Below, in pieces: positions 10,998 through 42,777 of a DNA stretch of 64,000 bases. A model generated the notes under the pieces. The model was not told where the DNA came from and made no database searches. It worked only from the letters and a program-made list of their open reading frames with translations. Source of the DNA: Bacillota bacterium (GTDB lineage: Bacteria > Bacillota > Sulfobacillia > JAIMAT01). The DNA lies in the NCBI GenBank assembly GCA_029961055.1, contig JASBVM010000017.1, positions 62,001-126,000 on the forward strand. The letters are read 5' to 3'. The position numbers were made by a program, and so were the translations under genes. Numbering within the stretch: the stretch's first letter is position 1; each line of letters opens with the position of its first letter.

Positions 10998-11657
10998 ATG
11001 AGCGAGCGATTCATCTCGCAGGAGGACGCGGCCACCATCGCCTCGATGATGGGCGAGACGAGCGGTACCGCCCAGGTCCTGCTGCTGGTCGGCAAGAACT
11101 GCCGCTTCTGCAAGGAGACGCGGCAGCTGATGGAGGAGCTGCACGAGATCAGCCCCGAGCACATCGCGCTCCGCGTCGTCGACGTCGACGAGGATCCCGA
11201 GGGCGCCTCGCTGGCCGAGCAGTACGGCGTGGAGGGGAAGACGCCGGCCATCATCTACCTGGACGCCGACGGCAACGACACCGGCATGCGCTACTTCGGC
11301 ATCCCCTCCGGCTACGAGTTCGGCGCCCTGATCGAGGACCTGGTCGACGTGGCCAACGGCCGCTCGCAGCTGAGCGCCGCCAGCCTGGAGAAGGTGAGGG
11401 CGCACGACGAGGAGCTGGTGATCCGGGTCTTCGTCACACCCACCTGACCGTACTGCCCCCGGGCGGTACGCCTGGCTCACCAGATGGCGCTGGAGAACCC
11501 GAAGATCCGCGCCGAGGCCATCGAGGCGTCGGAGTTCCCCTCGCTGGCCAACCTCTACAACGTCTTCGGCGTACCCAAGACCGTCACCGACAAGGGCGTC
11601 GACTTCGACGGGGCGCTGCCCGAGCCGATGTACATCAGCCAGGTTCTGGGCGGCTGA
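10998..11657 (+). CDS. selenocysteine-containing protein disulfide oxidoreductase (UPYC), UGA read through
   Basis: Read conventionally, the frame stops at TGA 11445-11447 after 149 codons. The next codons in the same frame give PYCPRAVRLAHQMALENP and continue without a stop to TGA 11655, completing a 219-residue protein with two thioredoxin folds, the length and layout of the PDO/glutaredoxin-like family. Module 1 has CRFC (35-38) and cis-Pro83; module 2 has U150-P-Y-C153 and cis-Pro193 in FGVPKTV. The TGA therefore replaces exactly the nucleophilic first Cys of the usual CPYC. Supporting evidence is the SECIS-like hairpin after the TGA and selC in this window. ATG 10998 follows AAGGAGGAG. 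The likely role is thiol-disulfide, or persulfide, reduction in the cytoplasm. The alternative is a single TGC-to-TGA nonsense mutation, which the intact downstream frame argues against. Confidence 0.87.
11459..11475 (+). promoter_or_regulatory. SECIS-like hairpin inside the coding sequence
   Basis: Bases 11459-11464 (CCGGGC) pair with 11470-11475 (GCCTGG), with one G-U pair, closing a loop GGUAC at 11465-11469. The loop begins 18 nt after the UGA and opens with GGU, the element SelB recognises in the Escherichia coli fdhF loop. Known bacterial SECIS loops lie roughly 16-37 nt past the UGA and carry a G among their first two bases. A competing 9-pair hairpin (11449-11457 with 11462-11470, one G-U pair) sits directly after the UGA. 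Confidence 0.6.
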
Positions 11658-11724
11658 GCACCTGGTCTCCACGATCCCTCGCTGCGATCGCAGGTACGGG
11701 GCGCTGCCCGAGCCGATGTACATC
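11608..11724 (+). repeat. 29-base direct repeat at the 3' end of the selenoprotein gene
   Basis: Bases 11608-11636 and 11696-11724 are identical over 29 positions, offset by 88 bases, and remain similar to the following stop codons (11655 and 11743). The first copy encodes the GALPEPMYI tail of the oxidoreductase. The spacer contains the 12-base palindrome CTGCGATCGCAG (11682-11693). Confidence 0.85.
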
Positions 11725-11745
11725 GGGCAGGTGCTGGCTGCCTGA
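11696..11745 (+). pseudogene. 3' remnant of a second oxidoreductase gene copy
   Basis: In its own frame this segment would read GALPEPMYIGQVLAA and stop, matching the last 15 residues of the preceding selenoprotein (GALPEPMYISQVLGG) with three substitutions. No start or upstream homology is present. It is best explained as the tail of a tandem duplicate whose body was deleted. Whether that copy used Cys or Sec cannot be known from this fragment. Confidence 0.65.
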
Positions 11746-11786: not shown

Positions 11787-12053
11787 ATGACCATCGACGA
11801 AGAGCTGCTCAAGGAGCTCATGGCCCGGATGCGCCGCATCGAGGGGCAGGCCCGGGGCATCCAGCGGATGCTCCAGGAAGGGCGGAGCTGCGAGGAGATC
11901 GTCACGCAACTGAGCGCCCTCCGCTCGGCGGTCAACAAGGTGGCGGTCGAGGTGATGACCGCCAACCTGGAAGAGTGCCTGCAGGCTCCCGTGGGCAGCT
12001 CGCAGCGGGAGGCGCTGGAGCACGCCCGCGACATCTTCCTCCGCTTCTCCTGA
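11787..12053 (+). CDS. cstR: CstR-like DUF156 transcriptional repressor
   Basis: An 88-residue all-helical repressor of the CsoR/RcnR/CstR family: RMRRIEGQARGIQRML, then C35 and C64. In copper sensors (CsoR) the ligands are Cys, His and Cys, the His lying four residues before the second Cys. Here that position is N60 in TANLEEC, the arrangement of the persulfide sensor CstR (ENLIEC in Staphylococcus aureus), so the expected signal is sulfane sulfur through a C35-C64 cross-link. ATG 11787 follows GGAGGTG. It is the distal gene of the selenoprotein operon and has a matching operator at 10847-10862. A different metal specificity is possible but less likely. Confidence 0.8.
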   Translation: MTIDEELLKELMARMRRIEGQARGIQRMLQEGRSCEEIVTQLSALRSAVNKVAVEVMTANLEECLQAPVGSSQREALEHARDIFLRFS

Positions 12054-40783: not shown

Positions 40784-42268
40784 TCACGCCACCTCGGGCG
40801 GGGGAAGCAGCCGGATGTAGAGCGCCTCGCCGCTGGACTGGACGGTGCCCCGCGCCGCCTCCACCTCCAGGCCGTCCACGCGCAGGAGGAGTCCCTCCTC
40901 GAAGAGGGCCGGCCGGCCCGGCGGCAGCTCCTCCTCGTCGCCGAAGAGGCGGACCCGACCGCTGACGTTGACCTCGAGCAGCCCGGCGCGGAGATCGTGG
41001 ACCAGCGGTCGCCCGCTCACCTCCAGCCGCGCCCCGTCGAACCGGAAGCTGGCGCTGCGCGTGTAGAGCGTCAGCCCCTCGTGGATCCGCTCGCCCTCGG
41101 TCGGCGGCGTCGCCGAGAGCAGGCGGAGGCGGGAGACGTCGAAGATGAGAAGCGTGCCGGGGGCGCGCAGCACCAGGTCGACCAGCTCCTGCTTCCTCTG
41201 GCGGCGCAGGTCGGCGGCGTCGTGCTCGGCCAGGAGGCGGTGGTCGTAGTCGTACCGCGTCTCCACCTGGCGGAGGAGCGCCTCGTCGCCGTCCCCCCCG
41301 TCGAAGGTCACGTGCTCCTCCAGCAGGTCGTCGAGGCTCGGACCTCCCGGGAGGATCCGCCCCGGCCAGCCCGGTTCCAGCCGTTCCAGGACCAGCGCCA
41401 TCCCCAGCCCGCTGTAGGTGAAGCGGCGGCGCAGCGCTCCCCGCCCCAGGTAGTTGATCCGCCGCATCTCCTCCAGCCGCTTCAGCTGGAGCTCCGCCAC
41501 GTGCAGGTAGCCCGCCTGCCCGGTGATCTCGCGGAAGACGGCCGAGGGCTCGTAGCCCTGCCGGACCCGCTCCATCGCCTTCCACTCCACGTAGCCGGCC
41601 GGCCCCTCGCGCAGCTCCATCGCCTGTTCGTAGGCGACGGTCTCGTCCTCCATCCAGGCGCGGCGCTCGCGCCGGACCAGGGCGAAGGCCCGGGCCCAGC
41701 GCTCCAGGGGCATCCCCTGGACCCCCTGGACGGCGTCGGCCAGGAGAAGGCCCTCCAGGTTGCCCAGGGCGTTGTTGGCCGCATCGTCCACCGGGTAGGC
41801 CGCGCTTCCCTCCAGCTGGACGGGGTTGACCGAGACGCCCAGCCGCCCCGCCCAGGCATGGAAGGCCTGGTGGATCACGAGGAAGACGAAGCTCTCCAGA
41901 TCCTGGTTCCCCTCCCCGCTCCACTCCACGGGGAGGAAGGCCGTCCGCTGGTTCCGGTAGGGCAGGATGGCGGCGCCGCCCTTCACCCGCGCCGGCGCCT
42001 CCACCGTGTAGCCCACGGGGCCGATCACCCGCTCCCCGCGCAGGAAGACCGGATGGGCGCCGGCGGGCGGATTGCGGTGGCCGACCAGGACGCATTCGCC
42101 GTCGGCCGTGTAGAAGCCGACGGCCGAGTTGCGCATGCGCCAGCCCGGCCAGAGCGGCTCTCCCGCCTCGTCGATCCGGACCGCCTCCAGCCAGGCGGTC
42201 AGCGCACGCTCCTGGCCGGTTTCCAGCTGCTCACGAAGCACTCCCGCTTCCACGTCGGCTCTCCCCAC
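40784..42268 (-). CDS. unknown 494-residue protein with an HQxxH motif
   Basis: A hydrophilic protein with no signal peptide. The middle carries VIHQAFHAWAG at 132-141, in which H133 and H137 have the spacing of a zinc-peptidase HExxH but the catalytic Glu is Gln134; ELREGPAGYVEW at about 219-230 resembles the downstream EGxAxYVE helix that gives the third ligand in several gluzincin families. The last 120 residues look like beta strands. This suggests a peptidase-like fold that binds metal or has lost activity; no family name is claimed. GTG 42268 overlaps the spore-protein gene by 38 bases. Confidence 0.6.
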   Translation of the reverse strand: MGRADVEAGVLREQLETGQERALTAWLEAVRIDEAGEPLWPGWRMRNSAVGFYTADGECVLVGHRNPPAGAHPVFLRGERVIGPVGYTVEAPARVKGGAAILPYRNQRTAFLPVEWSGEGNQDLESFVFLVIHQAFHAWAGRLGVSVNPVQLEGSAAYPVDDAANNALGNLEGLLLADAVQGVQGMPLERWARAFALVRRERRAWMEDETVAYEQAMELREGPAGYVEWKAMERVRQGYEPSAVFREITGQAGYLHVAELQLKRLEEMRRINYLGRGALRRRFTYSGLGMALVLERLEPGWPGRILPGGPSLDDLLEEHVTFDGGDGDEALLRQVETRYDYDHRLLAEHDAADLRRQRKQELVDLVLRAPGTLLIFDVSRLRLLSATPPTEGERIHEGLTLYTRSASFRFDGARLEVSGRPLVHDLRAGLLEVNVSGRVRLFGDEEELPPGRPALFEEGLLLRVDGLEVEAARGTVQSSGEALYIRLLPPPEVA

Positions 42269-42554
42269 CGCTCTCCGCCCGCTTCAGCCGGCGGGTCATC
42301 CATCCGCCCAGCCGGCCGGTCTCCGCCGCCGTCAGGCCACCCCAGCCGGAGGAGCGGACCCGCTCTTCCAGGCCCAGTTCCCGGGCGACCTCCAGCTTCA
42401 AACGCGCCAGCGGGCCGTCGCCCGCGAAAGGATCCTTCCTGGCCCTGCCCTTCCCGCCGGCCGCGGCCGCCGGCTTGGCACCGGCCTTCGCCTGCGCCGC
42501 CGCTCCGGCCTGCGGCCTCCGGCCCTCGGATCGCTGATCCTGCTTCGCCCCCAC
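42231..42554 (-). CDS. alpha/beta-type small acid-soluble spore protein, extended
   Basis: 107 residues. The C-terminal half (48-93) is a SASP domain: LARLKLEVARELGLEERV, then LTAAETGRLGGWMTRRLKRAE, matching the K-E-IA-ELG and GxxGGxM(V/T)K pattern; LEVARE is where the GPR protease would cut. SASPs coat and protect spore DNA. The N-terminal 45 residues, rich in Ala, Lys, Gly and Gln, are not typical and may add nonspecific DNA binding. GTG 42554 follows GGCGGAGGTG. It is strong evidence that the organism sporulates. Confidence 0.82.
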   Translation of the reverse strand: MGAKQDQRSEGRRPQAGAAAQAKAGAKPAAAAGGKGRARKDPFAGDGPLARLKLEVARELGLEERVRSSGWGGLTAAETGRLGGWMTRRLKRAESGGESRRGSGSAS

Positions 42555-42611
42555 GGGCCCGTTCACCTCCGCCCGCCTAGCCTCTCCGGCTCGGGGGCGG
42601 AGCTTACGCGG

Positions 42612-42640
42612 GGAGCGGCATCCCACTCCGATGCCGCTCC
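42612..42640 (-). terminator. selC terminator
   Basis: A perfect 11-base stem (42612-42622 with 42630-42640) with 7-base loop, downstream of selC on the minus strand and before the spore-protein gene. No T-run follows. A smaller TTGAC/GTCAA repeat lies between it and selC. Confidence 0.6.
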
Positions 42641-42682
42641 GCGGACCAATCCGGGTCCGGTTGACCGAACCGTCAAATCCCA

Positions 42683-42777
42683 TGGCGGGAGCATGTGGGA
42701 ATCGAACCCACCCGGGACAGCCCGTGCCCCACGACGGTTTTGAAGACCGCGAGCGACACCAGTCGCCAGCTGCTCCC
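42683..42777 (-). tRNA. selC: tRNA-Sec (anticodon TCA)
   Basis: 95 nt including an encoded CCA. The anticodon loop CTTCAAA carries TCA at 42741-42743, with stem GCGGT/ACCGT. The D arm is a long stem closed by a 4-base loop TGGT, the variable arm is long, and the T arm is GTGGG-TTCGATT-CCCAC, all hallmarks of selenocysteine tRNA. The acceptor begins GGGAGCA and ends TGCTCCC; the eighth pair expected in tRNA-Sec is a G-A mismatch. Its presence shows the organism can decode UGA as selenocysteine if selA, selB and selD exist elsewhere; none is in this window. Confidence 0.95.

Follow-up and report, generated by a model that had tools for sequence, protein, structure and literature searches.

A probable SECIS element with covariation across its loop in a TIGR02187-family selenoprotein gene of an uncultured Bacillota bacterium

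In the 64,000-nucleotide stretch of Bacillota DNA analysed here (the window), a gene that ORF callers terminate at position 11447 raises the question of whether its UGA at 11445-11447 is read as selenocysteine (Sec) and, if so, what is the role of each of two overlapping hairpins that follow. The original prediction described a SECIS-like hairpin and a second, mutually exclusive hairpin, and proposed that the two folds could compete, with SelB binding or ribosome position deciding between readthrough and stop. The features discussed are these:

10998-11657, + strand: gene for a two-thioredoxin-domain protein disulfide oxidoreductase (translation, TIGR02187 PDO_seleno_TRX, Pfam Thioredoxin_3)
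11445-11447, + strand: UGA predicted to be read as selenocysteine, residue 150 (aligned with Cys in Cys homologues)
11459-11475, + strand: probable SECIS hairpin with loop GGUAC on a stem of 11459-11464 and 11470-11475 (conservation and covariation of the stem among UGA homologues, not among Cys ones)
11465-11468, + strand: loop N1-G-U-N2, with N1 and N2 (here G and A) covarying in the family (mutual information, Watson-Crick counts)
11449-11470, + strand: competing hairpin of nine pairs that exists here but lacks conservation (covariation not above shuffles, rarely intact in homologues)
42687-42777, - strand: tRNA-Sec gene, selC (Rfam RF01852, 76.9 bits against a gathering threshold of 47; ARAGORN)

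The UGA shares its frame with the ATG at 10998, and 69 more codons follow it before the stop at 11655. Translated with UGA as Sec, the product has 219 residues, with CRFC in its first thioredoxin domain and UPYC in its second, where the UGA takes the first Cys position of the CPYC site. NCBIfam model TIGR02187 (PDO_seleno_TRX) matches the translation with 221.2 bits (E 9e-66) against a curated cut-off of 185, and this score, along with the UxxC in the second thioredoxin domain, places the protein in the family. The selenoprotein family listed as 'homolog of AhpF N-terminal domain' (TIGR02187, UxxC; PMC13188914), with members in Symbiobacterium thermophilum and Carboxydothermus hydrogenoformans (PMC1794560), shares the NCBIfam model, the UxxC position, and the UGA with its SECIS. 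The gene shows no essential difference from that known family, of which it is an additional member, from an uncultured member of the Bacillota.

The six-pair stem that had been predicted, with GGUAC as its loop, is present. Its lower half consists of C11459-G11475, C11460-G11474 and G11461-U11473, and its upper half of G11462-C11472, G11463-C11471 and C11464-G11470. The loop, 11465-11469, starts 18 nt after the last base of the UGA, a spacing of 17 or 18 nt. RNAfold favours a seventh pair, G11465-C11469, leaving the triloop GUA, at -10.5 kcal/mol versus -9.3 kcal/mol for six pairs. Criteria for bacterial SECIS elements were those of the bSECISearch model as given in PMC13188914, namely a loop of 3-9 nt, a stem of 4-16 bp, a G in the first two loop positions, a UGA-loop spacing of 16-37 nt and an energy of -7.5 kcal/mol or lower (PMC13188914). 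The hairpin lies within the published consensus in loop (5 or 3 nt, GGUAC or GUA), stem (6 or 7 bp), G, spacing (17 or 18 nt) and energy (-9.3 to -10.5 kcal/mol). At the gathering threshold, Rfam models find only the tRNA-Sec gene in the whole window. The single-sequence fold is not significant against dinucleotide shuffles (z = -0.72). Among synonymous-codon shuffles the six-pair stem arises in 6.3% and an equal or better energy in 4.2%, and the corresponding figures for the nine-pair stem are 4.1% and 3.6%. Neither hairpin is far beyond chance in this sequence alone, and homologues are therefore needed to decide.

We searched the phylum, the class and two further classes, scanned GTDB contigs and fetched regions, and examined 187 homologues at the Sec codon, 117 with UGA and 70 with Cys. 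The third codon positions that fall in the stem (11459, 11462, 11471 and 11474) are mostly C, G, C and G in the UGA genes; in the Cys genes they are not so kept and are free to vary. Energy of the SECIS region relative to synonymous shuffles has a median z of -2.8 in UGA genes versus -0.2 in Cys genes. Of the UGA genes, 86% satisfy the bSECIS criteria; the share is 6% among Cys genes and 14% when the UGA genes are synonymously shuffled. In an aligned set of 60 distinct sequences, 97.8% of cells are paired, with seven double-changed, and none of 500 shuffles reaches as high; this set holds those of 80 distinct sequences that share a common register, the other 20 (shifted register or side branches) being left out, a choice that favours the structure. 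The stem has 90% of cells paired when sequences are not selected, and a few UGA homologues (L035, L051) use other registers. Absence of conserved pairing among homologous UGA genes had been named as one finding that would refute the prediction; such pairing is present, with covariation, and it is relaxed in the Cys homologues.

The state of the residue itself, Sec or Cys, has changed at least 24 times on a tree built without the residues of the element. Recent exchanges are seen among close relatives, with L049 beside L051 and L053, and L064 beside L085; L049 has the codon TGC, yet its sequence past that codon is still that of its Sec relatives. Across genomes of the class, 64 of the 76 with a UGA copy of the gene gave a tRNA-Sec match; of the 14 whose copies all have Cys, 7 did so, as did 22 of the 64 remaining genomes. 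The majority of the 12 genomes that have a UGA copy and lack a tRNA-Sec match carry a UGA-containing selD.

The source genome encodes SelB, SelD and tRNA-Sec. Its SelB has the GTPase, EF-Tu domain 2, SelB beta-barrel, SelB-wing_2 and SelB-wing_3 domains, and the C-terminal part finds its best matches in the solved SelB chains 1lva, 2uwm, 2ply and 1wsu. Two other genes with UGA codons provide comparisons. The selD gene (L164 535) has its own in-frame UGA; the hairpin behind it reads CAGGUCC-GGC-GGACCUG and places its loop 17 nt past the UGA. In an fdhA-like gene (L168, reverse strand 1930) an in-frame UGA precedes GGUUCCC-GGUCU-GGGAGCC, whose loop lies 18 nt past that UGA. In all three hairpins, including that of the TIGR02187 gene, a G occurs in the first two loop positions; the fdhA-like loop is GGUCU where ours is GGUAC, at a similar distance from the UGA. 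The E. coli fdhF SECIS likewise has a G-U in the loop of its upper hairpin, which begins 11 nt after the UGA, and differs in a bulged U of the 5' arm that SelB contacts (PMC8659212); the 5' arm in the window has no such bulge. The SECIS identity is consistent across these lines, since the bSECIS criteria, the protein family, the Sec machinery, the compensatory changes in the stem and the similar hairpins of selD and the fdhA-like gene all agree.

Within the loop, position 11465 is the third base of an Ala codon (GCN) and 11468 the third base of a Val codon (GTN). Both sites are synonymous, and all four bases occur at each in UGA genes. In UGA genes no other two sites of the region share as much mutual information: the APC-corrected value is 0.76, against 0.33 for the next pair. 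In 91 distinct sequences that encode Ala-Val here, the N1-N2 combinations are C-G (21), A-U (16), G-U (15), G-C (13), G-A (12), U-A (11) and G-G (3). Wherever N1 is other than G, it is Watson-Crick complementary to N2 across the central GU, in 48 of 48 distinct sequences where 13.8 would be expected. In the alignment, 11465:11468 is paired in 86.7% of cells, compared with 45.7% in shuffles. The pair 11465-11469, which the published consensus suggests, shows no covariation, because 11469 hardly varies. In the window's own G-G-U-A-C, G11465 can pair with C11469 instead. Judging by these sequences, N1 would always be able to pair, with C11469 if it is G and otherwise with 11468 across the two-base G-U.

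An RNA contact is not the only conceivable source of such a signal. A bias in codon pairs or in base composition could also be proposed, as could shared descent, given that 11465 and 11468 are the third positions of adjacent Ala and Val codons, that the homologues do share descent, and that standard folding models forbid hairpin loops of two bases. Against this, non-G cases are complementary in only 54 of 153 Ala-Val codon pairs elsewhere in the same UGA genes and in 14 of 30 Cys homologues. A tree built without these residues requires at least 32 changes in the state of the pair, and all six supported independent C-G contrasts agree (p 0.03); among A-U and U-A contrasts none is contrary, with too few informative for a test. 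With 11465:11468 also the strongest mutual-information pair of the region, we consider an origin in codon pairs, base composition or descent unlikely.

We favour, with some reserve, a SECIS loop in which a Watson-Crick pair closes only two bases, so that an extruded G-U would be presented to SelB. When N1 is not G, its partner would sit one base closer than in the published bSECIS consensus, and the pair would be invisible to standard folding programs. Conservation of the loop G-U alone says nothing about SelB, because the Val codon also fixes it. In E. coli and Moorella, the G-U of the fdh loop is flanked by G and C, which might amount to the same geometry and serves as a lead. In the selD homologues of the class, checked for the same N1-GU-N2 rule, the loops differ and are mostly NGN triloops or CGGA-like, and support for the rule is confined to the TIGR02187 family. 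Covariation at two synonymous sites provides evolutionary evidence on the geometry of the SelB-binding loop, and it may help explain SECIS elements that searches miss or place in the wrong register. If the two-base-closing pair were generally valid, both the bacterial SECIS model and SECIS searches would be refined. The cross-loop pair is the part that deserves specialist attention.

The second hairpin of the original prediction also exists as described: 11449-11457 pairs with 11462-11470 in nine pairs around the loop CCCG, and this fold is mutually exclusive with the SECIS. At -13.7 kcal/mol it is 3.2 kcal/mol more stable, it is included in the minimum-energy fold of 11437-11490, and its predicted probability in naked RNA is about 1; at 60 C it still leads (-8.1 vs -6.2). 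All four genomes of the genus retain its sequence. A two-state switch, in which SelB supply or ribosome position would choose between readthrough and termination, draws on this dominance and on the report that SelB binds free SECIS ahead of the arrival of the ribosome (PMC5311926), a step that the competitor would hinder. Homologues, however, do not maintain the fold. Competitor covariation is at the level of shuffles (82.6% of cells paired vs 82.4%), the eight pairs tested (11450-11457 with 11462-11469) are all intact in 2 of 77 distinct homologous 30-mers, and three of the pairs are broken in a third to half of UGA genes. The median energy z of the competitor region is -0.6 in UGA genes and 0.0 in Cys genes. 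Tyr, Cys, Ala and Val codons account for the bases of the competitor. A link between the Val codon GTA and the competitor was considered by eye only and rejected, GTA occurring also in the competitor-free homologues L090 and L105.

The nine-pair fold is also lost once about 5 nt past the UGA are masked: the computed SECIS probability is 0.88 with 5 nt masked and at least 0.98 with 6 or more. With UGA in its A site, a ribosome occupies about this many nucleotides or more, and its arrival would therefore settle the competition between the hairpins. An evolved switch is thus not supported, and we regard competition between the folds as a determinant of readthrough versus stop, the part of the original prediction that lacks support, as highly improbable. 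As SelB is reported to bind free SECIS (PMC5311926), before the ribosome comes into play, a species-specific delay in loading is possible: with a predicted probability near 1 on RNA free of ribosomes, the competitor could slow the loading of SelB in this species.

That the UGA is a plain stop, yielding a 149-residue protein with a decaying downstream frame, is scarcely credible: the end point chosen by ORF callers and the partial duplication of the gene tail at 11697-11745 may suggest it, but the downstream frame is open, its protein sequence is conserved in distant homologues with UGA or Cys, and the Sec machinery is in the genome.

From sequence, homology, the presence of the machinery, and the covariation of stem and loop, we conclude that 11459-11475 is very probably a functional bacterial SECIS that directs Sec insertion at the UGA, the nine-pair hairpin being a side effect of codon choice. 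The SECIS reading, within an already known selenoprotein family, is strongly supported. The mechanism we propose goes further and predicts that SelB binds, that Sec is inserted, that the ribosome melts the competitor, and which bases SelB contacts. A ribosome at UGA 11445-11447 would hold the first downstream nucleotides, clearing on arrival the nine-pair hairpin, a species-level by-product, and the SECIS hairpin would then fold at the mRNA entry. In the family loop N1-G-U-N2-C, N1 would be paired and the central GU displayed on a closed stem, where the C-terminal winged helix of SelB would bind the GU-containing loop. SelB would thereby bring Sec-tRNA-Sec to the UGA, producing the UPYC active site of the second thioredoxin domain. 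Ordinary annotation would truncate this clean and well-supported selenoprotein gene at the UGA.

Several further observations concern the surroundings of these genes. The selB gene (L165 2321-5337, contig C1) directly follows a thioredoxin reductase-like gene, identified by reading, whose product is a plausible partner of the selenoprotein. Adjoining the tRNA-Sec gene, an ORF at 42231-42680 on the - strand encodes a small acid-soluble spore protein domain (PF00269, E 1e-8), which suggests a spore former. The final 49 bases of the selenoprotein gene (11609-11657) are repeated, with several differences, at 11697-11745, 88 bases downstream; in three genomes of the same genus this tail is present once and the next gene lies closer, which indicates a partial tandem duplication in the source genome. 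That next gene (11787-12053, + strand) encodes a CsoR-type metal-sensitive transcriptional repressor (PF02583, E 4e-24), and the pair of selenoprotein and repressor genes is conserved across the genus. A second, distant homologue of the selenoprotein in the source genome, L159 (contig C46:24734-25189), has Cys (CSRC) at the Sec position.
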